Translations under genes and position numbers: made by a program
Notes under the pieces: model-generated
Told to the model about the DNA's origin: nothing
What the model saw: the letters and a program-made list of their open reading frames with translations, nothing else
The model's database searches: none
Shown here: positions 6,115-37,624 of the stretch, piece after piece
How positions within the stretch are numbered: the stretch's first letter is position 1
How the letters are laid out: every line of letters begins with the position of its first letter
DNA from: Chthoniobacter flavus
GTDB taxonomy: Bacteria > Verrucomicrobiota > Verrucomicrobiia > Chthoniobacterales > JACTMZ01
Assembly: GCA_945871065.1 (NCBI GenBank)
Contig: CAMBUL010000018.1
Location: 1-38,939 of the forward strand
DNA length: 38,939 bases
Direction of reading: 5' to 3'

Positions 6115-6148
6115 AAGGGAGAGCGGGTGACGAGACTCGAACTCGCGA
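6115..6148. repeat. attL: Left attachment site, 34-bp direct repeat
   Basis: This 34-bp sequence is identical to 15310-15343 and mismatches on both sides. It duplicates the last third of tRNA-Gly(GCC) (T-arm, acceptor stem and discriminator) plus 7 bp of flank. The rest of the tRNA is absent here, so this copy is only the integration scar. Confidence 0.92.
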
Positions 6149-6233
6149 TTCTATGCTTCTAAAGGGCACTCGCCCGCGAAGCCGCATGAATACTGCATTG
6201 GTGACGATTTAGACATTCCTCGACGCAATATTC

Positions 6234-6253
6234 TTGCTACGTTGCTTGCTACG
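6234..6253 (+). promoter_or_regulatory. Left arm-type integrase binding sites (two TTGCTACG)
   Basis: Two direct copies of TTGCTACG start at 6234 and 6246, a 12-bp period. The same pair with the same period is found at the other end of the element (15254 and 15266). Paired sites inside both ends are what arm-type sites of a bivalent tyrosine integrase look like. The location 86 bp from the att core and just before the int start would also let integrase regulate its own gene. Confidence 0.7.
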
Positions 6254-6268
6254 GCTACGGTGTAGGGC

Positions 6269-7471
6269 ATGGCTTCGATATACCGCCGCAAGGACAGCAA
6301 GGTCTGGTGGGCCCGGGTCAGGGCCGAGGATGGGTCGTGGAAAAGCATCAGCACCGGAGTAGAACGCAAACGGGACAAGCAAAGCAAGGCCGACGCTCTT
6401 GAATACGCCACAAGCGTAGAAAAAGCCGCCGAGGCCGCGAGTCGGCATGAACTCCATACCGCCCGCGCCACCGAGCTCATCAGCCGCCTTGTCCAGATCA
6501 GCACCGGCAAGCCACTCGAAACCTACACAATCGCCGAGTGGCTCAAGCAATACCTCACCGGCAAGAAAACCACACTCGCCGAGGGCAGCCTCTCCCGCTA
6601 CACGCGCAGCATCGAGGACTTCATCGCCCACCTCGGCGCCAAGGCGGAACGACCGCTCGACACCCTGACGGTCAAACAGGTCGAGGCCTTCCGCGACGCC
6701 GAGCTCGAAACAGGCAAGGCCGGCACGAGCGTAACGCTCGAAATCAAAGTGCTCCGGGCAGCACTCGCCACCGCCCACAAGCGCGGTCTGGTAAAGCTCA
6801 ACGCCGCCGCCGCGTGCGACTCCGCTACAAACGACGGGGAGACGCGTGAGGTTTTGACCCGGAGAGAGATCGGGGCCCTGCTTCGCGCAGCCAAAGAGCT
6901 CGGCGGCATCGAGGGCAAGGAATGGCGGGCGGCTATTCTTCTCGGTCTAACGACCGGCCAGCGCCTTCAGGACATCTTGCGTATCAAGTGGGGCGCCTTT
7001 GACTTCGAGAAAAGCGAGATCCGCGTGAAGCAGCAAAAACAACGCCGCACCGAGACGAAAAAGACCCTCACCATACCACTCGACGACGAGGCCGAGAGCG
7101 CCGTGCTCGACCTTCCGGCGGCAGATAAGGCCGGCGATGCGTGCATCATGCCCACACTCTCGAAGCTTAGCGCCGGCGGGTGCAACGGCATGAGCGCACG
7201 TTTTTCAAAGCTCATGGCAAGGGCCGGCATCGACCGCGTCGAGGTGCGAAGCAAGACCGAGGGCAGTAAGGGCCGGCGCACGTTTGCGAAAGGTTTTCAC
7301 TCGTTACGGCATACCGCCGCCAGCGCCCTCGCGAACGCCGGCGTCGAAGAGCGTGTCGCCATGAATCTCACCGGCCACAAAAACAAGACGATGCACCAGC
7401 GTTACACAAAGCCTCAGGTCAAAGCCCTGAGGGCCGCACAGGCCAAAATGCGGGACGGCTTGGAGGACTAA
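6269..7471 (+). CDS. int: Tyrosine-type site-specific integrase
   Basis: The 400-aa protein is a phage-type tyrosine recombinase. The N-terminus (1-60, MASIYRRKDSKVWWARVR) is an arm-binding/AP2-like beta domain. Residues about 85-175 form the SAM-like core-binding domain. The catalytic domain carries Arg232 (TTGQRLQD), His344 and Arg347 (HSLRH), His370 (LTGHKN) and nucleophile Tyr379 (HQRYTKP), so all key residues seen are intact. It integrates and, with an excisionase, excises the element at the 3' end of tRNA-Gly. It reads inward from attL, and a weak terminator follows its stop. Confidence 0.95.
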   Translation: MASIYRRKDSKVWWARVRAEDGSWKSISTGVERKRDKQSKADALEYATSVEKAAEAASRHELHTARATELISRLVQISTGKPLETYTIAEWLKQYLTGKKTTLAEGSLSRYTRSIEDFIAHLGAKAERPLDTLTVKQVEAFRDAELETGKAGTSVTLEIKVLRAALATAHKRGLVKLNAAAACDSATNDGETREVLTRREIGALLRAAKELGGIEGKEWRAAILLGLTTGQRLQDILRIKWGAFDFEKSEIRVKQQKQRRTETKKTLTIPLDDEAESAVLDLPAADKAGDACIMPTLSKLSAGGCNGMSARFSKLMARAGIDRVEVRSKTEGSKGRRTFAKGFHSLRHTAASALANAGVEERVAMNLTGHKNKTMHQRYTKPQVKALRAAQAKMRDGLED

Positions 7472-7494
7472 GGGCGCAGCACTATCGGCTCCGA

Positions 7495-7520
7495 CTACCG
7501 CGACTTGTGCGGTGGGCTTT
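7495..7520 (+). terminator. Probable intrinsic terminator after int
   Basis: A 7-bp stem with one U-G pair (CTACCGC / GCGGTGG, 7-nt loop) is followed by GCTTTTT, 24 bp after the int stop. The short stem makes it a moderate terminator. Confidence 0.5.
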
Positions 7521-7586
7521 TTGTCGTTCTAATGCTCACAAGATGCCCACGCCATCTCATCCCAAATCCAGCACAAATTATGGGCC

Positions 7587-9254
7587 GTGCCTAATCTTAT
7601 AGACATCACGGGTAAGCGCTTTACGCGACTCAAGGTGCTGGGGCCCTGCAAGCGAGCCAAGAGCGGCACCCTCTGGAGGTGCCAGTGCGACTGCGGAAAA
7701 GAGCGCTGGGTCAACGCACAGGCACTCAAGAAGGGCAGGACGAAGTCTTGTGGATGCCTGCACAAAGAGGTGATGGCGCAGCGCGGACTAAAGTCTATGG
7801 CCGGCAAGCGATTTGGAAAATTGCTGGTGCTGAAGAATCATCGAAAGATAAAGACGTTCGTTGAGTGGGAATGCGCCTGTGACTGCGGAGGGCGATGTTG
7901 GAAAAGAGGACAATCTCTTCGGGAAGGAGCGGCACGCTCTTGTGGGTGCGTTCCGCGCAAGCCGAGTCGGGCGCTAATAGACCTCATGGGAAAGCGCTTT
8001 GGCCGGTGGCAAGTAATTGGGCCGAGAGAGAAACGGAACGGCGTGTCCGTATGGCTCTGCCGGTGCGACTGTGGCAAAGAGGAACGGCCGAGTGGTCAAT
8101 CGCTAAGAGATGGAACATCGAAGTCGTGTGGTTGCCTCACGAGAGAGTCTACGAGTCGCAGGTTCCTCAAAGACTTGTCGGGCAAGAAAGTTGGACGGCT
8201 TTCGGTCAGTAATAAGACAAAGCGCCGCAACAAAGTCGTGTATTGGTGGTGCCGGTGCGATTGCGGGAAGGAAAAATGGATCGCCTCGCCCGCGCTTCAC
8301 TCCGGTGCGACGAAGTCGTGCGGATGCTATGCGCGCGAGGTCTGCCTTGAGGGCGCGCTCAAATCCGCGAGGCGCAGATCGCTCAAGCTCTCAAACAAAG
8401 AGCGGCAGCTTCTGCGCGCATCTGCCAAAGAAAAGAGCGACGAGGCGATAAACGCCAAGATTCTTCTCTTATCCGATCAAGGACCGCTGGGCCCGTCTTT
8501 ATCCGATGCCGCAGTTGCACAAAAACTGGGGGTCACGAAAGGCAAAGTCAGTTACGCGCGAAACAAATACGTTGCTCCAGACATCCTAAAACAACGAATG
8601 CAAGCGACGACTCATAAAGCTCGCACTGACCCCAAAGCTCGCGAAGCGCGAGTTAAGGCGAGGAAAAAATACGACAGCAAACCAGAAGCAAAAGCACGAA
8701 AAAAGGAATACGCCCGCAACCTTCCTGAGCACGTCCGCAAGAAGAAGAGTCAGCGCGCGAGAGAATATCGCAAAACCCCTGCCGGACAGGCGGCAAGGCA
8801 GCGCGAGCTTGAAAGACAACGCGCCCACCGGAGAACGCCAGAGGGCAAAGCCAAAAAACGAGAGCATCATCAGAGAGGAAAAAAGCGCGCGGGTGAGCGC
8901 TACAAGGAGAGATACGAGACGGACCCGCAATTCCGGATGGCCGTCGTTCTTCGCAAGCGCATCGTCATGGCACTGAAAGCGCGGGGCCTAAGCAAGTCAA
9001 AGAGTTTACGCGAGCTTTTGGCTTGCACCATTTCTGATCTAAAAGCACACCTCGAAAGTCAGTTTAAACCCGGCATGAGTTGGTCGAATCATGGGGCCTG
9101 GCATATCGACCACATTATGCCTTGCGCTGCATTTAATCTGACCCTCTTGGCTGAGCAGAAAGCATGCTTTCACTACTCAAACCTTCAGCCGCTCTGGGCC
9201 GAGGAAAACTTGAGGAAAAGCGCAAAGCTTGGATACGATCCGAGCGCGACTTGA
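7587..9254 (+). CDS. HNH endonuclease with four tandem Cys-rich fingers
   Basis: The 555-aa protein begins at a GTG. Residues 5-58, 70-122, 130-184 and 195-248 are four copies of one module: GKRFGxxxVL, a W-x-C-x-CDCG block, then SCGC. This module is known from phage HNH and AP2-type endonucleases as a zinc-finger-like DNA-binding unit. A helix-turn-helix follows (about 304-326, DAAVAQKLGVTKGKVSYARN), then a long Lys/Arg/Ala-rich linker (335-440). The C-terminal HNH nuclease has HIDH (506-509), ACFHYSNLQPLW and ENLRKSAK. It probably makes site-specific DNA cuts, for homing, interference with another phage, or DNA processing. It looks less GC-rich than its neighbours, suggesting separate acquisition. 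Confidence 0.85.
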   Translation: MPNLIDITGKRFTRLKVLGPCKRAKSGTLWRCQCDCGKERWVNAQALKKGRTKSCGCLHKEVMAQRGLKSMAGKRFGKLLVLKNHRKIKTFVEWECACDCGGRCWKRGQSLREGAARSCGCVPRKPSRALIDLMGKRFGRWQVIGPREKRNGVSVWLCRCDCGKEERPSGQSLRDGTSKSCGCLTRESTSRRFLKDLSGKKVGRLSVSNKTKRRNKVVYWWCRCDCGKEKWIASPALHSGATKSCGCYAREVCLEGALKSARRRSLKLSNKERQLLRASAKEKSDEAINAKILLLSDQGPLGPSLSDAAVAQKLGVTKGKVSYARNKYVAPDILKQRMQATTHKARTDPKAREARVKARKKYDSKPEAKARKKEYARNLPEHVRKKKSQRAREYRKTPAGQAARQRELERQRAHRRTPEGKAKKREHHQRGKKRAGERYKERYETDPQFRMAVVLRKRIVMALKARGLSKSKSLRELLACTISDLKAHLESQFKPGMSWSNHGAWHIDHIMPCAAFNLTLLAEQKACFHYSNLQPLWAEENLRKSAKLGYDPSAT

Positions 9255-9301
9255 TAAGGTGAGGGAGACGTTTTCGGGAAACGACGACGGCCCTTCGTTT
9301 C
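9255..9301. other. Convergent gap with inverted repeat
   Basis: GGAAACGA (9277-9284) and TCGTTTCC (9295-9302) form an 8-bp inverted repeat with a 10-nt loop between the stops of the HNH gene and the repressor. There is no T-run, so it is a poor intrinsic terminator. The same 8-mer recurs at 13329-13463. Confidence 0.55.
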
Positions 9302-10231
9302 CTACTTCCGACTCTTTTTCTTCGTCGTCGATCGCCGTCCTTGTCGCGGAGCGCTTCGTTTCCCTTTTGGCGTTTGCACCGGTTTCGGCTTTGCAAAGAG
9401 CGCCGAGCTCATATCGGCGGTGCCGGCCGTAATAAGGCGCGTGCCCGTGAAGGTCGCCGTCGTCTTTGGCGCCCAAGGGAACCTGACCTCGACGACCTCT
9501 TCATTCAAGGCGACAAGGTGAACAAAGAATCCCTCGGCGGCCGTCGCCATGCCTCGTCCGGCCAAAGGAGACCATAGCGCGCGATAGCCGGCACGAGCCT
9601 CGACCTTCGTTTCATCAGGGTGAGAGCGTGCTGTCTTTTCATCCCATACCGGCGCACCGGCGTGCTCGATACCGAGCGCCGCTTTGAGCTGGCCGAGTGT
9701 CGTCTCTTGCCAAGGGCCCATGCGCACTCGGTCTTTAAGAGCGGCATTAACGTGGCCGACGAGCTCGAAGCGTCCGACCAATCCCTCAAAGGCTCGACTT
9801 AGCAGCAAGGCAATCATGTTGAACCGGTGCGCCGAGCCAGCTCCGTAGGCGCCGAGCACAATTGCCCGCGCAAGCTCGCCCGCGCGGTCTGCCGTTGCCT
9901 CGACTACATCCTCGGCTGGTTGCGTATTTCTCCACGAATCAAAGCTCTGGCGCGTGTAAGGCCGGCCACCGAGATCGAGCGCCCGTTTGCCTTCTTCCAA
10001 GCTCTTCGAGTCTGCTCCAGTGAAAGCCATGAGCTGAAGCGCAAGCTCCGGCTGTAGCTTTTTGATGCTGCCATCAACAACCTTGTGCAAAAGGGAGAAA
10101 GAAGTGTCTGGCAACCCGATATCCTTCGCGAGTTTCCGGTAGCTATAGGAATCGCCGAGTGTCGCCATTAACTGCGCGACCGCTTCGTTCCGCGTGCGCT
10201 TTTCATTCTTTGAGGTCGCCTTTTTTGCCAT
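9302..10231 (-). CDS. Probable master repressor of the element (HTH protein)
   Basis: The 309-aa protein has a predicted helix-turn-helix at about residues 29-52 (SYRKLAKDIGLPDTSFSLLH), a helical middle and a Lys/Arg-rich tail (SAPRQGRRSTTKKKSRK). It is the only leftward gene of the element and is divergent from the AlpA/Xis-like operon across a gap with two TGTATAA dyads, which is the position of a lysogeny repressor. I see no S24/LexA-type autocleavage domain, so induction might use an antirepressor, as for Stl of SaPIs, rather than RecA (inference). The ATG at 10231 has no Shine-Dalgarno; a TATAAA box lies 7 bp upstream, which predicts a leaderless mRNA. Confidence 0.65.
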   Translation of the reverse strand: MAKKATSKNEKRTRNEAVAQLMATLGDSYSYRKLAKDIGLPDTSFSLLHKVVDGSIKKLQPELALQLMAFTGADSKSLEEGKRALDLGGRPYTRQSFDSWRNTQPAEDVVEATADRAGELARAIVLGAYGAGSAHRFNMIALLLSRAFEGLVGRFELVGHVNAALKDRVRMGPWQETTLGQLKAALGIEHAGAPVWDEKTARSHPDETKVEARAGYRALWSPLAGRGMATAAEGFFVHLVALNEEVVEVRFPWAPKTTATFTGTRLITAGTADMSSALFAKPKPVQTPKGKRSAPRQGRRSTTKKKSRK

Positions 10232-10238
10232 GTATAAT
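10210..10238 (+). promoter_or_regulatory. Rightward promoter of the element operon
   Basis: TTGAGG (10210-10215), a 17-bp spacer and a perfect TATAAT (10233-10238) form a good sigma-70-type promoter pointing toward the AlpA/Xis-like gene. The -10 lies within the first dyad operator, so repressor binding there should block it. Confidence 0.6.
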
Positions 10239-10245
10239 TTATACA
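10231..10245. promoter_or_regulatory. Operator O1: perfect dyad overlapping repressor start
   Basis: TGTATAA-T-TTATACA is a perfect 7-bp inverted repeat with a 1-bp centre. It covers the rightward -10 box and the predicted leftward -10 (TATAAA, 10238-10243), and touches the first base of the repressor start codon. Confidence 0.7.
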
Positions 10246-10280
10246 CAACTTGTCGCGGAGCGTCGAGTTCGTCTTGCTGC

Positions 10281-10297
10281 TGTATAAATGTTATACG
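10281..10297. promoter_or_regulatory. Operator O2: second dyad, 3-bp spacer
   Basis: TGTATAA-ATG-TTATACG repeats the O1 half-sites with one mismatch and a 3-bp spacer, 50 bp from O1 start to start. It lies in the leader of the rightward operon, and an in-frame ATG at 10288 is its centre. Confidence 0.65.
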
Positions 10298-10308
10298 ATG
10301 CTCATGGC

Positions 10309-10590
10309 ATGGCAAAGAAAACAAAGCCCAACACGGGCGCGGGGCACGAAGCCGCCGCGCATAACAGCAACCACCTCGACGACTGGGGCAGACTGCCCAA
10401 GCCCGGAGACCGCATCGCCGGCCTCACCCGCTCGACGATCAATCAACTCGTCCTTGGGCCCGACGCACCGGTCGAGAGCAAGCTCTTCCGCGTAACACCC
10501 GACGCGAAGCGCGGAATCCGCCTTATCAAAATGCGCGGCGATCGCAGCCTCGAAGCCTACATCGTCGGCCTTCCGGGAGGTGCCAACTAA
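10309..10590 (+). CDS. AlpA/excisionase-like DNA-binding protein
   Basis: The 93-aa protein has the winged-helix plan of MerR/AlpA-type excisionases: RLPKPGDRIAGLTRSTINQL (residues 28-47) as recognition helix region, then a basic wing ending SLEAYI (80-85). In Gram-negative PICIs AlpA-type proteins activate the island, and excisionases bend DNA for excision; either fits here. It is the first gene of the rightward operon under the twin-operator promoter. I chose the ATG at 10309 (MAKKTKPN); the ATG at 10288 lies inside O2 and is less likely. Its N-terminus (MAKK) resembles that of the divergent repressor. Confidence 0.65.
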   Translation: MAKKTKPNTGAGHEAAAHNSNHLDDWGRLPKPGDRIAGLTRSTINQLVLGPDAPVESKLFRVTPDAKRGIRLIKMRGDRSLEAYIVGLPGGAN

Positions 10591-10970
10591 TGCGCCCGAC
10601 ACGCTACGGTCTGTATGAGACCGCCACCATGAGACGCAGCCGCGCCATTCGTGATGCAGCCAACCGGCGCTTTTACGCTGGCATCGTCGCCGAACTTGCA
10701 GCCGAGGCCGAGCAAGCTGAGATGAGGGAGCAGCTTTACGAGCGTGACTTCGCTCAAGCCCTTAAGGGTCGAGAGCCGTTCCCTGAACCGTCCACGGCGC
10801 GGCAAGACTTCGAGCACGCAACAACGCAAGCGCTGGCTCGATTGCTACACGCGGTGCCGTCGCACGAATGGTGCAACGCCGCGGAATGTCTCCGGCGGGA
10901 AATCAGCCGCAAGGCCGGGCTCTGCTCCTGCTTGGAGCACTACCTCGAAGATCGGAACTTCCCATTCTGA
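10590..10970 (+). CDS. Small hypothetical protein in element operon
   Basis: The ATG overlaps the previous stop by one base (TAATG), showing translational coupling. The 126-aa product is charged and helical, with an Ala/Glu-rich middle (AELAAEAEQAEMREQLYERD), three cysteines near the end (C95, C112, C114 region) and no known domain. The balanced composition and the coupling support that it is expressed. No function can be given. Confidence 0.6.
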   Translation: MRPTRYGLYETATMRRSRAIRDAANRRFYAGIVAELAAEAEQAEMREQLYERDFAQALKGREPFPEPSTARQDFEHATTQALARLLHAVPSHEWCNAAECLRREISRKAGLCSCLEHYLEDRNFPF

Positions 10971-10981
10971 GGAAAAGAAAA

Positions 10982-11011
10982 GGGCCGAGGCGCCAACCTC
11001 GGCCCAAAAAA
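10982..11011 (-). terminator. Hairpin between operon genes, terminator-like on minus strand
   Basis: GGGCCGAGG (10982-10990) and CCTCGGCCC (10997-11005) form a perfect 9-bp stem with a 6-nt loop. Read on the minus strand it is followed by TTTTCTTTT, so it would stop antisense transcription. On the plus strand it is followed by A6 and lies 9 bp before the primase ATG, so it may instead affect primase translation or mRNA processing. Confidence 0.45.
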
Positions 11012-11019
11012 CTAACTGC

Positions 11020-12309
11020 ATGACTACTCTATCATACTCTCCATGTCAGACAAGCCCGCTTCGAGATGCGGTCGAGCGTCTGACCATTCCTGACGTCGCC
11101 ACCGCCCTCGGCCTCGGCGAGCTCGAAGCCGGCCGACGGTGCCGATCTCCATTCTACCGCGACACGCGACCAGACTTCGCCATCAGCCGCGACGGCCGGA
11201 CGTTTCACGATCACGGCAACGGTGGCGAGCATCGTGGCGGTCTCATCGACTTTGTCGTCCTCGCCCGGAGTTGCTCGCGCAGCCAAGCCGCCGACATCCT
11301 TGTCGAGTTGGCCGGCGTGCCGAATACAGGCTCGGCGCCGACGAACGGCAAAAAACTTTGCGCGAGGATGCCCTCTGCCGCGTTTTCTCCGAGCGCGAGG
11401 GACAAGGACGCCGGGCGCGCTATAGAGAAGCCCGCACCGGGCGCCGTGCTCAATGCGTGGCGTGCCGGCTGCGAGCACCTGACCGCAAACGACGGCATGA
11501 TCGACCACCTCTGCCGGTGGCGCCGGTGGCGCCCGGAATGGGTGCTCGCCCTCGCGCGTGCCGAGATCATGGGATGCCCGACATCACGCGACGGCCGGCG
11601 CCTCGTCGCCTTTGCGGTGCACTCATCCTCCGGGGCCTTCCTTGGCTACCACCAGCGACAAAAGCCCACCGAGCCCGACGCCCGTGCGAGTTGGCATTTC
11701 GTTCCAACCGGCGTGCCGAGTCTGCCCTTCTTTATCGGCAACGTCGCCACCGCCACCGGCCTCGTTATCGTCGAGGGACAATGGGACGCGATTACGTTGG
11801 CCGGCACGGCCGGCTGGCTCGATGCCGGCGAGATCGAGGTGCCGGCTGGCTTGGCCGTCGTTGGCTTACGCGGTGCCGGATCATGGCGCCACCTCGTCGA
11901 GCGCTACCCGCTCTCAGCCAAGGCCCGCGCCCTACTTATTCCCGACGACGACGATGCCGGCCTTCGATGGACTACCGGCGCCGACTGCTTCGCCACCGCC
12001 CTCAGGAAAAAAGTGCGCAGCGTCTCGGCCGTGCACGCGATCGGCGGCAAAGACATTAACGACGCGCACCGAGAGCACGCCCTGACGCGCGACGACCTCG
12101 TCTCGATGCTCGAAGGGCAGGGGATTCTGCCGGGGACCAGGACTTCACCAGCCGCACCGCCGGCCGAGCCGACGACCATGTCGAGGTTCACCGGGCGCAC
12201 GCTCATGGAATTGCACAAGCTCGGCCCGCTCGAAGCCGCGGAGCGTGAGTCGATCGGGTGGGCCGTCGAGCTCTTCGAGGGCACCATCGAACCGGAGGGC
12301 ACGCGATGA
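11020..12309 (+). CDS. TOPRIM-domain primase
   Basis: The 429-aa protein starts at the ATG at 11020; the frame upstream overlaps the previous gene in a shadow frame. Residues 25-100 resemble the CHC2 zinc-binding region of DnaG (CRSPFYRDTRPDFAIS, then GGLIDFVVLA), but the cysteine/histidine set is incomplete. The TOPRIM core has Glu252 (IVEGQWDA) and the acidic cluster Asp309-Asp312 (PDDDDAG), then GGKDINDAH. Such proteins make RNA primers for replication. Its stop overlaps the helicase start (ATGA), so the two probably act together in element replication. Confidence 0.85.
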   Translation: MTTLSYSPCQTSPLRDAVERLTIPDVATALGLGELEAGRRCRSPFYRDTRPDFAISRDGRTFHDHGNGGEHRGGLIDFVVLARSCSRSQAADILVELAGVPNTGSAPTNGKKLCARMPSAAFSPSARDKDAGRAIEKPAPGAVLNAWRAGCEHLTANDGMIDHLCRWRRWRPEWVLALARAEIMGCPTSRDGRRLVAFAVHSSSGAFLGYHQRQKPTEPDARASWHFVPTGVPSLPFFIGNVATATGLVIVEGQWDAITLAGTAGWLDAGEIEVPAGLAVVGLRGAGSWRHLVERYPLSAKARALLIPDDDDAGLRWTTGADCFATALRKKVRSVSAVHAIGGKDINDAHREHALTRDDLVSMLEGQGILPGTRTSPAAPPAEPTTMSRFTGRTLMELHKLGPLEAAERESIGWAVELFEGTIEPEGTR

Positions 12310-13316
12310 GCGAATCCGCCACCCGCTTCGAGCCGGTCGTCGTTGAACAAAGCCGGCAGGACGAACTGCTCGCCGCGTTCCGTAAATCAACACTCACCGC
12401 GCCGGAACTTCGCCGGCGTGAGATCAGGCCGCGCGAGCCGGTGCTCGGCCTATGGTGGCGCGAAGCCGACCTCGGTTTCCTCTTCGCACCGCGCGGCCGG
12501 GGAAAAACTTGGTTCTCGATGGGTGCCGCCAAGGCGATCGCCGCCGGCGAACCCTTTGGGCCATGGGAAGTGCCCAAAGCTCGACGCGTGCTCGTCGTCG
12601 ATGGCGAGATGGCTCTCGACAATACGCGCGACCGCGAGGTTCTGCTTCCGGGTGCGCCATGCGAGAACCTCGTTTTCCTACACCATCAGGCGCTACACGA
12701 TGACGGGGCCGAGAGTCTCGACCTTGCCATACCCGACGCGCAGCAAGCGCTGAGCGCCCTAATTGAAGAGCGCGAGATCGAGGTGCTCATCCTCGACAAC
12801 TTGAGCTGTCTGTTTCGCCGCGTGGCCGAGGACAAAGCCGACGCATGGGAGGCGATTCTTCCATGGCTGCTCGACCTCCGGCGGCAGAATGTCTCGGTCT
12901 GCATCGTGCACCATTCCGGGCGCAATCACCGCGACATGAGGGGCACCAGTAAGCGCGAGGATGCCGCCCTTTGGATTATGCGCCTCGACGAGCCCGTCAC
13001 CGCCGAGCCCGACGAGGGCGCCCGATTCATCGCAAAGCTGACCAAAAACAGGAACAGCACCAGCCGGGACTGTCCACCCATCGAGCTCGCGTTCCTGCCG
13101 TGCGACGGCGGCACGTTACAGGTCACGCATCAGGCGATCACCACGGCCGAGCGATTCCGCATCGCCGTCCGCGACCTCGGCCTCACCCGTGCCGGCGACA
13201 TCGCCGAGCGCCTCGAAGTAACACCCGGAACCGTGAGCAAGCTCGCCGCCAAAGCTGCCGAGGCCGGCTGGCTGCGCATCGAGGGCCGGAACTACCATTA
13301 TGCAGCCGATGAATAA
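12306..13316 (+). CDS. RepA-like replicative helicase (RecA-fold AAA ATPase)
   Basis: The 336-aa protein has Walker A APRGRGKT (61-68), Walker B VLILDN (160-165), a VHHSGRN sensor-like block (201-207) and MRGTSKREDAA (211-221), the arrangement of hexameric plasmid RepA/AAA_25 helicases. A C-terminal winged helix (about 290-330, GDIAERLEVTPGTVSKL) may bind DNA or an origin. It is coupled to the primase by a 4-base overlap. Together the genes form a self-contained initiation module as in P4-like satellites, PICIs and integrative plasmids. Confidence 0.87.
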   Translation: MSESATRFEPVVVEQSRQDELLAAFRKSTLTAPELRRREIRPREPVLGLWWREADLGFLFAPRGRGKTWFSMGAAKAIAAGEPFGPWEVPKARRVLVVDGEMALDNTRDREVLLPGAPCENLVFLHHQALHDDGAESLDLAIPDAQQALSALIEEREIEVLILDNLSCLFRRVAEDKADAWEAILPWLLDLRRQNVSVCIVHHSGRNHRDMRGTSKREDAALWIMRLDEPVTAEPDEGARFIAKLTKNRNSTSRDCPPIELAFLPCDGGTLQVTHQAITTAERFRIAVRDLGLTRAGDIAERLEVTPGTVSKLAAKAAEAGWLRIEGRNYHYAADE

Positions 13317-13716
13317 CACCTCAGCCATGGAAACGAAGGGCTGGCTTCGTTTCTTAAAAAAGCTCCTTTCGTTTCCTCTCGGTGCGTCATGGAGTGTTGA
13401 GAGCGTCTGGAATCGTCTCGTTTCCTTTCCGCGCCACCATAGGCAACGGCGCGAGGGAAACGAGGCGCCCGACATCATCGCCGGCTCGGCATCTCACTAC
13501 CGGGAGGTGGCAGACAAGCTCGACGACGACTTACAGGAGCTCGGCGCCCTATTAGAGCGCACAATCGGCGACCTCGAAGAACTCGACCTCGACATCGAGG
13601 AAGGGCGCCCTGCGCGCCTGAGCGCGGCCGAGATCGCCGTGCCGCTACGCCTCGCCCTCGACGAGATCGACGGCATCTCGCACCGGCTTCCATCTTATGA
13701 AAAAACAAAACGCTAA
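13309..13716 (+). CDS. Hypothetical protein, coiled-coil-like; 5' part doubtful
   Basis: The frame is open from ATGs at 13300, 13309 and 13327. The second half (about residue 60 on) is a convincing acidic helical domain (REVADKLDDDLQELGALLER). The first 55 codons cross a repeat cluster (TCGTTTCC/GGAAACGA at 13329-13463) and have unlike composition (WLRFLKKLLSFPLG), so they may be non-coding DNA, with translation starting later from a non-ATG codon. No family is recognised. Confidence 0.5.
   Translation: MNNTSAMETKGWLRFLKKLLSFPLGASWSVESVWNRLVSFPRHHRQRREGNEAPDIIAGSASHYREVADKLDDDLQELGALLERTIGDLEELDLDIEEGRPARLSAAEIAVPLRLALDEIDGISHRLPSYEKTKR
13329..13463. repeat. Cluster of TCGTTTCC/GGAAACGA repeats with hairpin, possible origin
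   Basis: Exact 8-mers occur at 13329 (GGAAACGA), 13369 and 13418 (TCGTTTCC) and 13456 (GGAAACGA), with a near copy at 13347. GAAACGAAG (13330-13338) and CTTCGTTTC (13345-13353) form a perfect 9-bp hairpin. The cluster lies directly after the primase-helicase pair, a usual place for an island or phage origin. Three more exact copies lie at 9277, 9295 and 9356. Confidence 0.5.
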
Positions 13717-13915
13717 CCTAACACCTGACCAGCTCGCCAAGCTCATCGAAGCCCGGAACGCTTGCTATGATGCCAGCTCAGCCCTCGCCCGCGCCGTTAT
13801 GGCAATCGGCGAGGCCGGCTGGCTGGAATCAAGCCGACGCGGTTACGGCCTTCACTGCCGCTCTGTTGAGATCGCCCTCGCGGTGGATCACTACACCGAG
13901 CCATTCCTGCCATGA
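13697..13915 (+). CDS. Small hypothetical protein, 72 aa
   Basis: A short helical protein whose start overlaps the preceding gene by 20 bp and whose TGA overlaps the next ATG (ATGA). Its coding support is this coupling and balanced composition. It contains a DASSALARAVMAIGEAGW helix and no known motif. Function unknown. Confidence 0.5.
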   Translation: MKKQNANLTPDQLAKLIEARNACYDASSALARAVMAIGEAGWLESSRRGYGLHCRSVEIALAVDHYTEPFLP

Positions 13916-14499
13916 CGACCACCGAACTCGCAGCGCAACTTGGCATCTCCCGGCAGGCCACAAGTAAGCTCATCGCAAGGGGGATGCCGCGCGACGCCGT
14001 GAGCCGCGCACAATCATGGCGCCGGCGGAACACCGGCTCAAAGGTGCCGAAAGACATCTCGCCCGACTCCGCCCTCGCCGAGCTCGAAGCCGAGGGAGAG
14101 GAACTGCCGGCCGACTCGGCCAGCCTCGAAGAACAGCTTGCCCTCGTCGCTAGGGTACGCCATGCCGCCGCCCGTCGTTACGATGAAGCGATCGCCGCCC
14201 GCGAGGACGACTCCGCGCGCCGGTGGGCTCAGGTCGTCATCAGCCTCTCGCAGCGTGGCGCCGACGCCGAACTGAAGCTCAGGCGAGCCCGCGAGATGGA
14301 GAAAAAGACCATCACCTACGAGGATGCGGTGCACGCATTTACAGGCATCCTCAAAGAGCTCCGCACCTACACCGATGCGATGCCGGCCTCGTTGGCCGGC
14401 CGAGTAAATCCTGCCGACACTGAGCACGCCTTAAAAACCTTGGTCGAGTGGCGCGACAACTTCCACCGGATGATTCACGCGGCCGGAGAGAAGGTCTGA
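13912..14499 (+). CDS. Nu1/TerS-like small terminase candidate, copy 1
   Basis: The 195-aa protein opens with a helix-turn-helix (TTELAAQLGISRQATSKLIA, residues 2-21) followed by RGMPRDAVSRAQSWRRRN. It then has a long helical middle and a C-terminal block EDAVHAFTGILKELRTYTDAMPASLAG. This is the Nu1-type layout: winged HTH, then assembly helices with a 'D-x-M/L-P' turn. Small terminases recognise viral DNA for packaging. It is paralogous to the next gene. No large terminase is encoded nearby, so it may redirect a helper phage's machinery (inference). A plain HTH regulator is the alternative. Confidence 0.55.
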   Translation: MTTTELAAQLGISRQATSKLIARGMPRDAVSRAQSWRRRNTGSKVPKDISPDSALAELEAEGEELPADSASLEEQLALVARVRHAAARRYDEAIAAREDDSARRWAQVVISLSQRGADAELKLRRAREMEKKTITYEDAVHAFTGILKELRTYTDAMPASLAGRVNPADTEHALKTLVEWRDNFHRMIHAAGEKV

Positions 14500-14592
14500 C
14501 CGCAACCGAAACCGATGACAGGTTGCCGCTCACAAAGGACGCCGGAGTCGATTGCCACCCCGATAAAAAAACACCTCAAAGATTGCTTACTC

Positions 14593-15060
14593 ATGAATCC
14601 AAACAAAAAACCTCTCAGCCTCCGGGAGCTCGGCGCCGGTCTCGGCATCTCGCACGTTGCCGCCCGCAAGCTTGTCCTCCGGGGGATGCCGCGCCATGAC
14701 ATCGAAGCCGCGACCGAGTGGCGAAAGCGCAACACGCGCACGTTTTCAACCATGCAACGGTTCCAGACACGCAGCGAACGCGGCAAGGACCGCTGGCTAC
14801 GGCCGGCCGAGGACGCGACATCGTCCTTCGATGACTGGCTTGAACGCGACGGGGAGGTCGAGAGCGTAGAGGATGCGGTGCATTTCTTCTGCTTCTACCT
14901 CGCCGGCTTCGAGCAACGCCTCGATGCCATGCCGGCCGAGATCGCCAACAATCTCAGGCCCGACGCACCTGACGAGATCGAGGCCATGCTCATCGAGTGG
15001 CGTGAGGCCCTGCGTGTCGAGATGAAGGACCGACTCACTAAGCTCGTTGGCCCCGAGTAG
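14593..15060 (+). CDS. Nu1/TerS-like small terminase candidate, copy 2
   Basis: The 155-aa protein starts at ATG 14593. It matches copy 1 in the HTH (LSLRELGAGLGISHVAARKL, then RGMPRHDIEAATEWRKRN) and in the C-terminal block (VEDAVHFFCFYLAGFEQRLD, AMPAEIANNLRPDAPDEIEA, then LIEWREAL). It lacks most of the middle helices. A 93-bp gap separates it from copy 1, unlike the overlapping genes upstream, so it may be separately translated or expressed. The two copies have diverged strongly, suggesting different DNA targets. Confidence 0.55.
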   Translation: MNPNKKPLSLRELGAGLGISHVAARKLVLRGMPRHDIEAATEWRKRNTRTFSTMQRFQTRSERGKDRWLRPAEDATSSFDDWLERDGEVESVEDAVHFFCFYLAGFEQRLDAMPAEIANNLRPDAPDEIEAMLIEWREALRVEMKDRLTKLVGPE

Positions 15061-15309
15061 GGAACCTCTGACGGCCACCAGAACGGAGGTGGCTCGCGAC
15101 GGTCGGGCCTTTTCGGCGAGCCGTAAGCTTTTCGGAAAGGTTACCGCTACCTGAGTGGCTCGCCATTGGCCTCAGGATGCCCTCAGCGCCCTCTCGAACG
15201 TCGTCCTAATGCTCTCGGTGCGGCCGGCAGACAAAACGCGACACCGGTCAATTTTGCTACGCTTCTTGCTACGTTGAAGCACCACATTCTTCATAAGTTG
15301 TTGACTATG
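15061..15309. other. Non-coding right end of the element
   Basis: No convincing gene. It holds an inverted pair GGCTCGC (15091-15097) / GCGAGCC (15116-15122), a repeated GTGGCTCGC (15089 and 15155), and the right arm-type sites. Excisionase or integrase binding is plausible. Confidence 0.5.
15254..15273 (+). promoter_or_regulatory. Right arm-type integrase binding sites (two TTGCTACG)
   Basis: TTGCTACG at 15254 and 15266 reproduces the 12-bp period and orientation of the pair at 6234/6246. It lies 37 bp inside the right att core. Confidence 0.7.
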
Positions 15310-15343
15310 AAGGGAGAGCGGGTGACGAGACTCGAACTCGCGA
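15310..15343. repeat. attR: Right attachment site, 34-bp direct repeat
   Basis: This copy is identical to 6115-6148 and forms the 3' third of the intact tRNA-Gly(GCC), so the element restores the tRNA it enters. Confidence 0.92.
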
Positions 15344-15389
15344 CATCTTCCTTGGCAAGGAAGTGCTCTACCAACTGAGCTACACCCGC
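15317..15389 (-). tRNA. tRNA-Gly(GCC)
   Basis: The 73-nt gene folds with acceptor stem GCGGGTG/CACCCGC, D arm GCTCAGTTGGTAGAGC, anticodon stem CTTCC/GGAAG with loop TTGCCAA (anticodon GCC), and T arm GTTCGAGTCTC. No CCA is encoded. Its 3' end is the integration target of the element to the left. Confidence 0.95.
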
Positions 15390-21577: not shown

Positions 21578-23533
21578 TCAGCCTTCTTTCTCGGCTCCGT
21601 CGAGCTCCGGAATCGTCTCCCCGCTCTCCTCGACACGTCCCCCCAGGTGCTTGGCGAGGAAGCGTTCGACCGCGCGATAGAAATAGAGGCGGTTTTCCTC
21701 GTTGGCGAAACCGTGGCCTTCGTTGTCCTTTACAATGTAGGGCACGTCGATGCCGCGGGTCTGCAGCGCTTCGACGATCTGGTCGCTCTCGGCTTTCTTC
21801 ACCCGCGGATCGTTCGCCCCCTGGGCAATGAGCAAAGGGGAAGAAATTTTGTCCGCCGAAAAAAGCGGTGATGCCGCGGTGAGCAAATCTTTCTCGGTCT
21901 CCGGGTTGCCGATCATTTCGTACTGCATCTGGCGATAAGGCTCCCAATACGGAGGGACACTGGACAGCAGGGTGAAGATATTCGACGGGCCGACGAAGCT
22001 GATCCCCGCCGCATAGACCTCCGGGGTGAAGGCCATGCCGGCCAGCGCGGCATAACCGCCATAGCTGCCGCCGTAAATGGCGATCCGCTGGGGATCGGCG
22101 ATGCCGCGGTCGACCAGCCACTTAACCGAGTCGGTCAGGTCGTCCTGCATCGCCTTGCCCCATTGCTTGAAACTTTTCTCCCAAAACTCGCGCCCGTAAC
22201 CGGTCGAGCCGCGGAAGTTGACCTGCAGCACGGCATAGCCGCGGTTGGCCAGGAATTGCGCCTCCCCGTCGAATCCCCACGCGTCACGCGCCCACGGCCC
22301 ACCATGCACAAGCAATACGGCCGGCAAGTTCTTCGCTTCGACCCCGGGAGGCAGGGTGAGATACGCGGGCAACTCGAGCCCGTCACGCGCTGGAATGCGC
22401 ACCGGCTCCATCGGAGCGAGCTTCTCCTCGTCGAGCCAAGGCGACACCTCGGCCAGCTTGCGGAGCTCATCCGTAGTACTGTCATAGTAGTAAAACGCCC
22501 CGCGCGAACGGTCGCTGTGAGTTCGGACGATGAATTTGTCCTCCTCACGATTGGCCGAGCTGAGCACGACCTCCTCGCCGGGGAGCTTTTCCTCCAGCTT
22601 GGCCTGGAGGTCGCGGCGCCAGTTGTCGAAAAAATGGTATTCCTGCTTGTCGCGGGTAAAAGCCGCGGCGGTGAGCACCTTGCGCTTGTCCGAACCAACC
22701 AGACTGCCGACATCGACCTCGGGATGTTCGAAGATGACCTCCTGCTCCTTCCCCGTGGCGGGATCGAGGCGCACGATGGCCGCCTTGTCGCGGCCGATAT
22801 TGGACGAGGCATAGAGATCCTTGTTGTCGTAGGTGAAGAAGAGCGGATCGGCGCTTTCGCGGAAGTTGGTGCTAATCACCTTCTTGAATGGCTCGTCCGG
22901 CGTGGCGCGGGTGAGCAACTCGGTATTGACGCCGTCGGTCTGCACCGCGGCACGCACTTGGCCGTCGTGGTCCGTGATCCAAGAAGAAACACTGCCGGGA
23001 TTCTCCGCGACCAATTTCATCTCCCCGTCGCGGGTGTTGAGCCGGAAGACATCAAAGACACGCGCGTCGCGTTTGTTCATGCTGATCAGGAGATGGTCCT
23101 CATCATCACGCAAGTCATCGACCACGCCGACCCGCACCCCGGGAAAGGGCGTGAGGTCGCGGCGGTTGCCGCCGTCGGCGTTGACCGCGTAGAGATGGAA
23201 ATTCTCGTCTCCGCCGTCGTCCTGCAGGTAGACGATCTGGTCCTTCGCCGCCCAAAAGTAGCCGGCAATGTCGCGCTTGGTCGCATCGGTCAGGCGCTGC
23301 GGGTCGCCGCCACCCACCGCCTGGACGAAAACATTGAGGCGGTTTTCCCACGGCGCCATCCACGAAATGTAGTCGCCGCCAGGACTGACCTGATAGGACG
23401 CACCCTCCGGATTGCGGAAAAAATCGCGCAGGGGAATGATGGGCGGCGGTTCCACGGTTTTGGGCGGACTGATTTCCATGGCGGACGCAAAGGTGGGTAG
23501 GACGAGCAAAAGGGAGAAGAGTGGACGGAACAT
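21578..23533 (-). CDS. Secreted S9-family peptidase (prolyl oligopeptidase fold)
   Basis: The 651-aa protein has a signal peptide (MFRPLFSLLLVLPTFASA), a beta-propeller-like N part with repeated blocks (YQVSPGGDYISWMAPWENRL), and a C-terminal alpha/beta hydrolase. The catalytic triad is Ser490 (GGSYGGYAAL), Asp575 (GANDPRVK) and His607 (NEGHGF). Such dipeptidyl/acylaminoacyl peptidases trim peptides in the periplasm. It stands alone, convergent with chrA, with tRNA-Gly(CCC) upstream. Confidence 0.93.
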   Translation of the reverse strand: MFRPLFSLLLVLPTFASAMEISPPKTVEPPPIIPLRDFFRNPEGASYQVSPGGDYISWMAPWENRLNVFVQAVGGGDPQRLTDATKRDIAGYFWAAKDQIVYLQDDGGDENFHLYAVNADGGNRRDLTPFPGVRVGVVDDLRDDEDHLLISMNKRDARVFDVFRLNTRDGEMKLVAENPGSVSSWITDHDGQVRAAVQTDGVNTELLTRATPDEPFKKVISTNFRESADPLFFTYDNKDLYASSNIGRDKAAIVRLDPATGKEQEVIFEHPEVDVGSLVGSDKRKVLTAAAFTRDKQEYHFFDNWRRDLQAKLEEKLPGEEVVLSSANREEDKFIVRTHSDRSRGAFYYYDSTTDELRKLAEVSPWLDEEKLAPMEPVRIPARDGLELPAYLTLPPGVEAKNLPAVLLVHGGPWARDAWGFDGEAQFLANRGYAVLQVNFRGSTGYGREFWEKSFKQWGKAMQDDLTDSVKWLVDRGIADPQRIAIYGGSYGGYAALAGMAFTPEVYAAGISFVGPSNIFTLLSSVPPYWEPYRQMQYEMIGNPETEKDLLTAASPLFSADKISSPLLIAQGANDPRVKKAESDQIVEALQTRGIDVPYIVKDNEGHGFANEENRLYFYRAVERFLAKHLGGRVEESGETIPELDGAEKEG

Positions 23534-23580
23534 GGTGATAATGGGACCGCCTCATAGAGGCGGACGTTCAAGAAAAGTGG

Positions 23581-23651
23581 AGCGGGTGAAGGGAATCGAA
23601 CCCTCGTATGCAGCTTGGGAAGCTGCCGTTCTACCATTGAACTACACCCGC
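23581..23651 (-). tRNA. tRNA-Gly(CCC)
   Basis: The 71-nt gene folds with acceptor GCGGGTG/CACCCGC, anticodon stem GCAGC/GCTGC with loop TTCCCAA (anticodon CCC), and T arm GGGTTCGATTCCC. No CCA is encoded. It is a different Gly isoacceptor from that at 15317. Confidence 0.95.
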
Positions 23652-24057
23652 GAAAGAGCTAACTATCATCCCCCGTGGCGCGGCCGCGGCAAGGGGAAAA
23701 TACGAGGCTGCCATTTGTGCGAGGAGGCAACCTTCTTGCCAAGGCATCCAGATCATGAGGGCCTTTGTGGCGATGCGCAAATTTACCCTCCAGCCCCGCC
23801 ATGCTTTTCTCTGGCGATGGCTTTACCGTAGCGAAGCAAGGGATGGGCCGTTTTTTTTTGCCGAGATCTGCAATCTGTTTCGCGCAATGGCCAAGCTGCC
23901 CAATCCCACGAATTTTTTGCCGAATTCACTAGAATAGTTCTGGATGCAACGCGGTATTTCTGCCTTAAGTTACGGCAGAGCATGTTCTCGGAAAAATAGA
24001 TCGAAAGTCACAACGCCTGCGACGCCAGACGAACTGTTTCCACCAATTATTAACTCC
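23652..24057. other. Non-coding stretch after tRNA-Gly(CCC)
   Basis: About 400 bp with no convincing gene. It contains the first copy of a 24-bp repeat (23678-23701). The right half is AT-richer than the host genes and should contain the promoter of the AOC-like gene. Confidence 0.45.
23678..23701 (+). repeat. 24-bp direct repeat, copy 1
   Basis: It matches 24918-24941 at 23 of 24 positions (ends CGCGGCAAGGGGAAAAT). The two copies flank the AOC-like gene. Confidence 0.7.
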
Positions 24058-24558
24058 ATGATGATCACCCGTTCCCTAAAATATCTCCTCACCGCAACTC
24101 TGCTCACCACAACATGCGCTTTCTCCAGCACAGCATTGGCCGAAGATCTGACCCTATACTCCAATGTTGTAAAACCTGTCGACGTCCCGAATACAGCCGA
24201 GGATTTCGGCGTGGGCCATCGCCGGATTCGCGAGAGTAAAATCCGGCTCTCCGAAAAGGGGAAGGTGGTTGGCAAAAGCTACTCGATCTCTAACGTGGTG
24301 AAGGCAAACGCCAAGGCCGGCACCCGGACAGGTGCCGTGCTTGGAGTGGTGCAACTTCCCAAGGGCACTTTTTGGACTGAGGCCACGGCAGAGGTCATGA
24401 ACCTCAAGGCTGCGCCTGGGGCAGGTTACAAATATAGCGGCCTTATCCTCGGCGGAACCGGCGCTTACGAAGGAGTGACTGGCACCTTCGATTTTGAATA
24501 CAGCAAGGACGGCAAATTTACCACGAGGGTTTGCCACTTCGTGCGGGCCGAAAAATAG
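24058..24558 (+). CDS. Secreted allene-oxide-cyclase/dirigent-like barrel protein
   Basis: The 166-aa product from ATG 24058 has a signal peptide (KYLLTATLLTTTCAFSSTALA, cleavage after about residue 28) and a beta-barrel domain. The C-terminal GGTGAYEGVTGTFDFEY is the glycine-rich strand-turn-strand motif seen in allene oxide cyclase and dirigent barrels. In plants these control stereochemistry of oxylipin or lignan formation; bacterial members have unknown roles. The gene is less GC-rich than its neighbours and flanked by a direct repeat, hinting at acquisition. Confidence 0.68.
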   Translation: MMITRSLKYLLTATLLTTTCAFSSTALAEDLTLYSNVVKPVDVPNTAEDFGVGHRRIRESKIRLSEKGKVVGKSYSISNVVKANAKAGTRTGAVLGVVQLPKGTFWTEATAEVMNLKAAPGAGYKYSGLILGGTGAYEGVTGTFDFEYSKDGKFTTRVCHFVRAEK

Positions 24559-24588
24559 ACCTCAAATTATCAACATATCAAAAACTGT

Positions 24589-24612
24589 GCTCTGACCCAG
24601 AGTGAGCTTTTT
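24589..24612 (+). terminator. Weak terminator candidate after AOC-like gene
   Basis: GCTC (24589-24592) pairs with GAGC (24604-24607) and T5 follows. An alternative CTCTG/CAGAG stem overlaps. The stem is short. Confidence 0.3.
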
Positions 24613-24917
24613 CCCATTGTCGCCTTTCTGGCTAAAGACCCATCACTTCTGCAATTCCAAACAAATATCTATCGACTCCGTTTTGATACCATTAACCTAA
24701 CGCGCCATCTTGGCGAAGCCCCTGCTTTTCCTCACAATCGATCAACTTATCTGAGGCGCTGCATGGAATCTGTCGCCAAGATTTGAAGCCTTGCTCACTT
24801 CAGCCTGAAAACGGATTTTTAAACAGGATGGTAGGATTAAAAGGACTCACAGGAATTCCTCTGAACACGCAATCTTCGCGGCTTCGCCCGCCCAGCGGAC
24901 CGCTGACCAACCCTCGT

Positions 24918-24941
24918 GCGCGGTCGCGGCAAGGGGAAAAT
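24918..24941 (+). repeat. 24-bp direct repeat, copy 2
   Basis: Second copy of the repeat at 23678-23701, one mismatch. It abuts the stop codon of the gene at 24942. Confidence 0.7.
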
Positions 24942-25181
24942 TCAGGTTTCACCTTCCCAGCTTAGGGGCTCCTCCGGCAGATTGCGCAGGAATGCGGAGT
25001 CGCGCAGCATGATCCATTCGCGGTCGCTATCGCCGTTGGTTCGACGGATTTCGTCGGTATCGAAGACGCGCTTGCTTTCTCGCCACTCGGCCAGAGTCCA
25101 TGCGCTGACCGGACCGAACTCGGTGCCGTCGGGTCGTCGCACCTCGTAGCGGGCCTGGAGAAAATCGGACGTCGCATTCAT
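24942..25181 (-). CDS. Small protein, possible GYF_2-like domain
   Basis: The 79-aa product from ATG 25181 contains YEVRRPDGTEFGPVSAWTLA and a later EWIMLRDSAFL, the rough pattern of GYF_2 domains (aromatic-x-G-P-V, then a helix). The match is weak. No signal peptide or membrane segment. A GTG at 25205 could extend it by eight residues. Function unknown. Confidence 0.55.
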   Translation of the reverse strand: MNATSDFLQARYEVRRPDGTEFGPVSAWTLAEWRESKRVFDTDEIRRTNGDSDREWIMLRDSAFLRNLPEEPLSWEGET

Positions 25182-25229
25182 CCCCACCGAAATGCTCCCG
25201 GGCACGGGTTTTGTAAAGCCCGGATGGTA

Positions 25230-25985
25230 CTACCAAACGAGATCAATTGGTGGCACGACAATCGAGGCGTTGGCACCGGTCAAGGTTCCCTCGGACTCTT
25301 CCACCGTTTCGACCAAGCCGTTGACGAAGCCGACGGTGGTCGTGCCGACCGGCACCTTCAAGTAGACGGTCGAGGCGTCGTAGCCGTAGCCGCTGCGCAC
25401 CACCACCCTCTCGAGTTTCGCGCGCGGATCGGGCCGGGAACCGGTGAGAGACTGCACGTAGGACGGCGAGTAAACCGTCTGCGGGATCAGTTTGTATTTC
25501 ACGTATTCGTAGGTTTGCGTGGACCCCTCGAGCCCGGTCTTGCTCGAACGCTTCTGCGGCTTGCCCAGACTGCGCGTTACCTCCTCGAGCGTCATGCCCA
25601 CCGCCACTTCCTTGCGGGCAATGAGGTCTTCCACTTCCCGCCGCCGTTGCTCGGCGCGGACCGCAATTTCCAGATAGTTCTCGGGCAAACCCGCCACGTA
25701 GAGCGGCTCGATCCAGGCCGCCACGCCGCCTTGCTGGGCATTGCCACGCACACGCAACAGACCATCCGGGGAAATGGCGTCGAGTTGCACAGCCTGCGGA
25801 AAACGCAGGGTGCCGGCAAAGCGCTTCATCGTGGCCTCGAAGAAACAAGGGGCCGGGCCGGTCAGCTGGTAGCGCGGCAGACGCTCGTGGAAGTCGGATA
25901 GGTAAATGACCCCGGGCTCGCGGACAATCGGCCCGGCCGTGGCCGCCGCTATTCCCGCGAGAAAGAAAGCCATAACTGTCCTCAT
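25230..25985 (-). CDS. Secreted hypothetical protein with BamE-like turn
   Basis: The 251-aa product from ATG 25985 has a signal peptide (MRTVMAFFLAGIAAATAG). The middle contains VAVGMTLEEVTRSLGKPQK, similar to the G-M-T-xx-EV-xx-LG-P turn of SmpA/BamE folds, then strands with repeated tyrosines. The C-terminus is threonine- and valine-rich. No certain family. The frame upstream of 25985 overlaps the divergent thioredoxin gene and is read-through. Confidence 0.7.
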   Translation of the reverse strand: MRTVMAFFLAGIAAATAGPIVREPGVIYLSDFHERLPRYQLTGPAPCFFEATMKRFAGTLRFPQAVQLDAISPDGLLRVRGNAQQGGVAAWIEPLYVAGLPENYLEIAVRAEQRRREVEDLIARKEVAVGMTLEEVTRSLGKPQKRSSKTGLEGSTQTYEYVKYKLIPQTVYSPSYVQSLTGSRPDPRAKLERVVVRSGYGYDASTVYLKVPVGTTTVGFVNGLVETVEESEGTLTGANASIVVPPIDLVW

Positions 25986-36922: not shown

Positions 36923-37174
36923 TTAATTGGCCACCATTACCACATTGATCCGGCGTCCGCCGCGGTCAAATTCCACTTTGCCGCTCTCCAGGGCGAAGAG
37001 GGTGAAATCGCGCCCCAGACCAACATTGCGGCCGGGGAGGAATTTGCGCCCGCGCTGGCGGATGAGAATGTTGCCGGCGAGCACAGCTTGACCGCCGTAC
37101 TTTTTCACGCCGAGCCGTTTGCTGACGCTGTCGCGCCCGTTTTTGACGCTGCCTTGTCCTTTTTTATGGGCCAT
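36923..37174 (-). CDS. rpmA: 50S ribosomal protein L27
   Basis: The 83-aa protein [20 protein letters not shown]...LGVKKYGGQ...GNILIRQRG is bL27. It starts directly with the mature AHKKG form, without the cleaved N-terminal extension of Firmicutes. It follows rplU by 6 bp. Confidence 0.97.
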
Positions 37175-37180
37175 ATGCGT

Positions 37181-37498
37181 TTAGAGTTGGATTTCGCCGA
37201 TTTTCACCCGGGTGTGCCTTTGGCGGTGACCCACCGTACGGTGGTAGCCTTTGCGGCGTTTGAATTTGTAAGAAACGACTTTCGGGGCCTTGCGTTCCTC
37301 TTCGATCACTTCGGCCGAGACTTTGGCGCCCTTGAGGTAAGGATCGCCGATTTTTAGGCCGGAATCGTCGGCGGCCATCAGGACTTCGTCGAAAGAGGTC
37401 GTTTTGCCGGCTTCGACGCCGAGCAGTTCGACGTCGATCACGTCGCCTGGTTGCACGCGGAACTGGCGGCCGCCGCTTTGGATGATTGCGTAGGACAT
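37181..37498 (-). CDS. rplU: 50S ribosomal protein L21
   Basis: The 105-aa protein from ATG 37498 (MSYAIIQSGGRQFRVQPGD) has KFKRRKGYHRTVGHRQRHTR near the end, diagnostic of bL21. The upstream frame to 37585 is leader and promoter DNA. The operon is rplU-rpmA with its own promoter at 37526-37554. Confidence 0.97.
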   Translation of the reverse strand: MSYAIIQSGGRQFRVQPGDVIDVELLGVEAGKTTSFDEVLMAADDSGLKIGDPYLKGAKVSAEVIEEERKAPKVVSYKFKRRKGYHRTVGHRQRHTRVKIGEIQL

Positions 37499-37525
37499 AA
37501 AGTGGATTCCGAAAGGGTCTGGAAA

Positions 37526-37554: not shown

Positions 37555-37577
37555 AGATTTCCGCAGAATGTCGGCGA

Positions 37578-37617: not shown

Positions 37618-37624
37618 GGTGAAA

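Follow-up and report, generated by a model that had tools for sequence, protein, structure and literature searches.

The contig CAMBUL010000018.1 (38,939 nucleotides; the whole stretch is called the window below), from a Chthoniobacterales bacterium, contains a 9.2-kb element at positions 6115–15343 whose ends are a perfect 34-bp direct repeat. The element is probably an integrated phage satellite resembling phage-inducible chromosomal islands (PICIs), with phages encoding a GpA-type large terminase (TerL) as helpers. We give this reading a probability of about 0.74. The element is integrated at a tRNA-Gly gene with intact attachment (att) and arm-like sites, and carries a replication module and small terminase (TerS) homologues of a phage family, but no virion genes. 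Its induction, replication and packaging would depend on the helper, whose GpA large terminase is predicted to act on the satellite DNA. Membership of the PICIs in the strict sense is not established.

Integration at a tRNA-Gly gene

The left end of the element (attL, 6115–6148, forward strand) is a 34-bp copy of the 3′ end of tRNA-Gly(gcc). It is repeated exactly at 15310–15343 (attR, forward strand), overlapping the 3′ end of the intact tRNA-Gly(gcc) gene that is the integration target (15316–15389, reverse strand). The tRNA-Gly locus is uninterrupted in G001 and G010, which belong to the same genus. Both flanks meet there precisely at the 34-bp repeat, which corresponds to an empty site and excludes a chance repeat. 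The source assembly is fragmented (120 contigs) and the window is one entire contig, but the element is flanked on both sides by other open reading frames (ORFs), which speaks for integration.

A third genus-mate, G005, has flanks 94–96% identical to those of the window, and its tRNA-Gly site is occupied by another island of 6.9 kb (L088; contig C98, 4423–11364). The integrase of this island is 32% identical to the integrase of the window element. L088 also contains AlpA-like, primase-like and helicase-like genes and cargo, and no terS was seen in it. Judging from these two occupants, the tRNA-Gly site appears to be an exchange site for small islands. As for its use by prophages, the few genomes compared show two empty sites and, in the third relative, a small island.

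The 8-mer TTGCTACG is present in only four copies in the window, all on the forward strand, which form one pair just inside each end of the element. The left pair is at 6234–6253 (copies at 6234 and 6246) and the right pair at 15254–15273 (copies at 15254 and 15266), with a spacing of 12 bp in both. Their placement is as expected of integrase arm sites, and the pairs can be considered as putative arm sites flanking the att core. The island L043, described below, shows a comparable arrangement with two copies of TGTTAGGCC at each end.

Gene content

Genes were mapped with a simple, purpose-written gene finder based on codon usage. The ten main proteins of the element were scanned against Pfam and PHROG, and an ORF of 72 amino acids (aa) at 13697–13915 was scanned with PADLOC only. 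A preliminary description of the window, made from its letters alone, had proposed a satellite with an integrase, a helicase and TerS-like genes, and these assignments are borne out by the Pfam and PHROG matches and by the phage TerS profile described below. The tyrosine integrase (400 aa; 6269–7471, forward strand) matches PF00589 (3.3e-22) and phrog_1 (2.5e-47). The RepA/AAA_25-type helicase (336 aa; 12306–13316, forward strand) matches PF13481 (AAA_25; 2.9e-24), has a C-terminal winged helix-turn-helix (HTH), and has relatives in islands of Chthoniobacterales. No gene for virion, capsid, portal, lysis, large terminase, relaxase or conjugation functions was found by Pfam and PHROG among the ten proteins, which agrees with the preliminary description.

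The primase, AlpA and repressor calls are less firm than the others. The primase-like protein (429 aa; 11020–12309, forward strand) contains the TOPRIM-like motifs VIVEGQWDAI and LLIPDDDDAG, read by eye, and has a relative in genome G036 (3.9e-39), but its best PHROG primase match is 0.011 and no Pfam TOPRIM match was obtained. A divergent pair of a repressor and an AlpA/Xis-like gene had also been described. The pair is indeed divergent, and the AlpA/Xis-like protein (100 aa; 10288–10590, forward strand) matches the equivalent protein of L043 (1.9e-4), but neither protein has a Pfam or PHROG match. The reverse-strand gene at 9302–10246 (314 aa; alternative start at 10324) is regarded as a putative repressor because it is divergently placed and its N-terminus, judged by eye, resembles an HTH.

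Between the AlpA-like and primase-like genes, a tightly packed ORF of 126 aa (10590–10970, forward strand) is supported by its coding score. Two ORFs on the forward strand were predicted by the gene finder between the helicase and terS1: one of 138 aa (13300–13716), with a phrog_57 value of only 0.077, and the 72-aa ORF mentioned above, which abuts terS1.

Related islands

When the helicase, primase and TerS were used as queries against 97 related genomes, tRNA-bounded islands came to light. L042 (8.3 kb) is inserted at tRNA-Arg in G001, L043 (7.9 kb) at tRNA-Phe in G010, and L046 (7.9 kb) at tRNA-Val in G002, and each contains an integrase gene, replication genes and terS. More distant tRNA-bounded islands of 5–14.5 kb (L032, L038, L039 and L041) are present in other families of the order, and one of these, L038, has the same set of genes. 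The related islands are 5.1–9.7 kb long, with one of 14.5 kb. No large terminase was seen in L042, L043, L046 or L038, four islands of some 7–8 kb, nor did a relaxase turn up; homologues of the element are not always in full prophages or beside relaxase genes. G010 also contains a decayed island of 3.6 kb at tRNA-Arg (L047; contig C23, 7779–11356), which retains only an integrase gene and a terS fragment. The first residues of the L047 integrase are almost identical to those of the L042 integrase.

A protein of 191–193 aa is encoded near terS in three islands (7061–7636 in L042, 8480–9061 in L046, and 8665–9240 in L043). The versions in L042 and L046 look related by eye. It is a candidate interference or capsid-related gene.

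When named genomes were scanned with the helicase alignment, the best 30 relatives were almost all from Verrucomicrobiota, in agreement with the host group proposed earlier. An integrase is often located 2–4 kb upstream of these helicases, and several of the loci show att repeats at a tRNA gene. The IMG/VR scan with the window helicase alone revealed no relatives. The helicase was considered as a marker of satellites and dropped, since it is also present in IMG/VR contigs whose ORFs look phage-like by eye.

TerS homologues of a phage family

The forward-strand gene terS1 (13912–14499) encodes a TerS homologue of 195 aa and terS2 (14593–15060, forward strand; an in-frame start is possible at 14515) encodes a shorter paralogue of 155 aa. 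The two are about 33% identical. TerS1 matches phrog_57 at 1.1e-6, and the PHROG match of TerS2 is 0.056. The TerS relatives in three islands of the genus match phrog_57 at 2e-5 to 1e-8.

The gene neighborhood in phages is informative about this family. In a phage or prophage contig of G080, the TerS relative is upstream of a GpA-type large terminase (PF05876; 2e-59), which is followed by apparent head and tail genes. A scan of IMG/VR with this TerS revealed 98 relatives, 80 of which were kept (L096–L175). GpA TerL is downstream of terS in 75 of the 80 contigs, either touching it or within 3.9 kb, and in the remaining five the contig breaks off within 0.5 kb of terS. In G287, a closed genome of the same class, a prophage TerS of the terS1/terS2 family is directly before a GpA TerL that is just 31% identical to that of G080.

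A profile built from the 80 phage TerS proteins was run against 6794 six-frame ORFs, and finds both terS1 (4.7e-10) and terS2 (4.5e-7). It also matches the proteins of L046 (5e-8), L038 (4e-8) and L042 (0.002), and others more weakly. In L038 the part matched by the phage profile is the C-terminal segment (7e-8). In full phages the relatives are located upstream of the GpA large terminase, the position expected of a genuine TerS, which supports the TerS identity. By the phage neighborhood and the profile matches, terS1 and terS2 are well-supported TerS homologues, and they agree with Nu1-like small terminases (phrog_57) in family membership, and their family adjoins the large terminase in phages.

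The structural model of TerS1 has a mean predicted local distance difference test (pLDDT) score of 82.7 and matches an unnamed phage protein in BFVD (3.9e-6). None of the PDB matches in a fold search with this model was significant, and the absence of TerS there is uninformative. The VIA-align rows for TerS1 were not used, being generic helical matches to the middle helices. The IMG/VR scan with the TerS of L046 revealed no relatives.

A cos-like motif upstream of terS

The phage terS genes are preceded, at a nearly constant distance, by a near-palindrome (GGGAACCCTACC, AAGGAATCTTTTT, GGGAGTCTCCT and variants). Among loci with enough sequence upstream of terS, it is at −90 or −91 in the 31 phage sites with a tallied position, and a looser pattern matches in the equivalent region of 56 of 58 loci. 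In the G287 prophage, TAAGGAATCTATTAG precedes terS by about 100 bp. About 18 IMG/VR contigs, belonging to several phage clades, start at a homologous base about 60 bp before terS, and the near-palindrome is about 30 bp further upstream of this base. The shared contig start suggests a physical DNA end of the phage genome. Based on their position, their shape and the contig ends, the near-palindromes could be the cohesive-end (cos) sites of these phages.

Three islands have a similar motif. A weight matrix was made from 18 distinct phage sites after the island motif had been seen by eye, so its p values are descriptive and non-blind. Its best match within the island is just upstream of terS and in the right orientation in L042, L046 and L038, with null p values of 0.0014, 0.0016 and 0.0009, respectively, for a search span of 170 bp. 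In L043, GGGAACCCT occupies the corresponding place (p 0.17). An nhmmer model derived from phage sequences alone places L038 first (E 0.057) and L042 second (E 0.22) among 13 loci.

Possible mechanism and helper phages

The life cycle of the element can be outlined as follows. The integrase and the AlpA/Xis-like protein would recombine the 34-bp core in tRNA-Gly, perhaps aided by the paired TTGCTACG sites. A helper phage would relieve repression by the divergent regulator, and the excised circle would be amplified by the primase and the helicase, as their families imply. TerS1, TerS2 or both would then bind a site on the satellite DNA and recruit the GpA-type large terminase of the helper, and the satellite DNA would be packed in helper capsids. 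The TerS homology and the co-occurrence of this TerS family with GpA TerL are observed; the packaging step is proposed from them.

Phages with homologous TerS are seen in IMG/VR, G080 and G287. Those that combine a GpA terminase with a TerS of the terS1/terS2 family, common in IMG/VR, could be considered as the candidate helper group. GpA TerL genes are present in 4 of the 11 genomes of the genus.

Several observations weigh against a satellite with GpA helpers. The GpA search revealed no large terminase in the source genome (G000), so any helper must come from outside. The sole phrog_2 match in G000 is in a PhoH-like ATPase gene, named by eye, and the idea that this genome carries its own helper was dropped. 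The TerS of the GpA prophages seen in the genus is not the same, and its relationship to that of the element is confined to the HTH (hhalign probability 74%). No relatives of terS1 were found in the IMG/VR scan or by tblastn against the phage collection. The weight matrix shows no cos-like site at the two terS genes of the window (p 0.86 and 0.40), and the nhmmer model of the phage cos region finds no site in the element. Finally, the repressor and primase assignments are weak. The element either uses a diverged packaging site or has lost it. The non-coding tail after terS2 (15061–15253) is a candidate place for such a site; a weak, non-significant GGGAACCTCT at its start was rejected as a packaging site, being no better than chance.

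Alternative explanations

It can be speculated, with some doubt, that the element represents a new lineage of Verrucomicrobiota satellites defined by a captured phage cos-terS segment, in which the two TerS paralogues of the window act together on the GpA terminase of the phages common in IMG/VR, one TerS-like and the other Rpp-like, and its own packaging site has been moved or redesigned.

Alternatively, the element might be the same kind of satellite with TerS1, TerS2 or both acting like Rpp, in mixed complexes that redirect the helper TerS instead of substituting for it. A TerS origin has been suggested for Rpp (PMC6739421), RppC ranks second of just two PDB sequence matches of the TerS profile, and two paralogues in tandem, one of them short, would fit such a role. 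The RppC match is not significant (E 0.37), however, and there is no significant sequence support for Rpp. TerS1 is of full length, and both proteins retain the C-terminal segment common to phage TerS, where the match of L038 to the phage profile also falls. We consider an Rpp-like action unlikely.

The element could also be an immobile remnant, that is, a prophage stripped of its structural genes or a dead satellite. That no cos site was seen in the window would fit this view, and L047 illustrates that such islands do decay. In the window, however, all main ORFs are open and the att and arm sites are intact. Moreover, the same architecture recurs in four independent islands, an outcome not readily expected if prophages had decayed repeatedly. 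A remnant is quite improbable.

An integrative mobilizable element or integrative plasmid that moves by conjugation, with ordinary HTH regulators mistaken for TerS, is least probable: such elements also commonly have an integrase and replication genes and a site at a tRNA, and a conjugative Nitrobacter plasmid carries one partial match to the helicase (27% coverage), but neither Pfam nor PHROG gives a relaxase or conjugation match, the phage neighborhood fixes the identity of the TerS family, and related islands have a cos-like motif upstream of terS.

Comparison with known satellites

In the broad sense of a satellite, the element is an att-bounded insertion with its own integrase and has no virion, large-terminase or lysis genes. 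By the definition of PICIs used here (PMC6092414), it shares with SaPIs (Staphylococcus aureus pathogenicity islands) and EcCICFT073 an integrase gene at one end, a divergent pair of genes (putative regulators in the element), an xis/alpA gene, a primase and a helicase, and terS, which only some PICIs have, at the far end. Like them, it lacks virion and lysis genes. The AlpA-like, primase-like and AAA_25 genes follow in this order rightward of the repressor. The PICI gene order claimed in the preliminary description holds from xis to terS, but the integrase gene is oriented with the replication genes on the forward strand, opposite to the putative repressor. The element also differs from PICIs in size (PICIs are typically about 15 kb), in its location at tRNA-Gly in Verrucomicrobiota, and in its proteins, which are not assignable to PICI families with the tools used. 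The element may work like a PICI but is not classified here as one.

The Rpp-mediated cos packaging of Gram-negative PICIs likewise involves a TerS-related HTH protein, which acts on a lambda-type cos terminase (PMC6739421). The element differs in having a tandem pair of full TerS homologues that retain the C-terminal segment, and its related islands have a cos-like motif beside their own terS. Phage-inducible chromosomal minimalist islands (PICMIs) of Vibrionaceae are also small (6.1 kb in the prototype), with an integrase/alpA/primase core and no capsid remodelling genes (PMC10803314). Unlike the element, they are located at fis, and the text of PMC10803314 does not mention a terminase. Capsid-forming PICIs (cf-PICIs) have their own capsid, portal and both terminase genes, whereas the element lacks capsid, portal and large terminase. 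The phages with GpA TerL (L096–L175, G080 and G287) share the terS homology with the element and the cos-like motif upstream of terS with its related islands, but they have genes for the large terminase, portal and capsid, all of which are absent from the element.

Other features of the window

Three features are absent from the preliminary description: the arm-site repeats, the 72-aa gene at 13697–13915, and an HNH nuclease gene next to the integrase gene (555 aa, GTG start; 7587–9254, forward strand; phrog_374, 6e-53). The nuclease has zinc-ribbon-like repeats, with repeated CxCDCG...SCGC modules. The G+C content drops to about 0.55 across this gene, and no counterpart was seen in the related islands. 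The low G+C content suggests that the gene is probably a later arrival in the element, perhaps a homing gene. PADLOC revealed no defence gene among the ten proteins tested. Two further stretches of low G+C content are located in the window at 23500–25500 and 37000–38500, and the latter contains, close to the end of the contig, an ORF of 370 aa whose start is HTH-like.

Satellites in Verrucomicrobiota

Phage satellites have been described mainly from Firmicutes and Proteobacteria, and some from Actinobacteria. No satellite of Verrucomicrobiota was found described in the open literature searched. If the element is a PICI-like satellite, this major and mostly uncultured phylum would have PICI-like satellites of its own, for which tRNA genes serve as exchange sites, and sequence would suffice to name a candidate group of helpers. 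The shared cos-like motif would provide a concrete, testable link between the satellites and their helpers.

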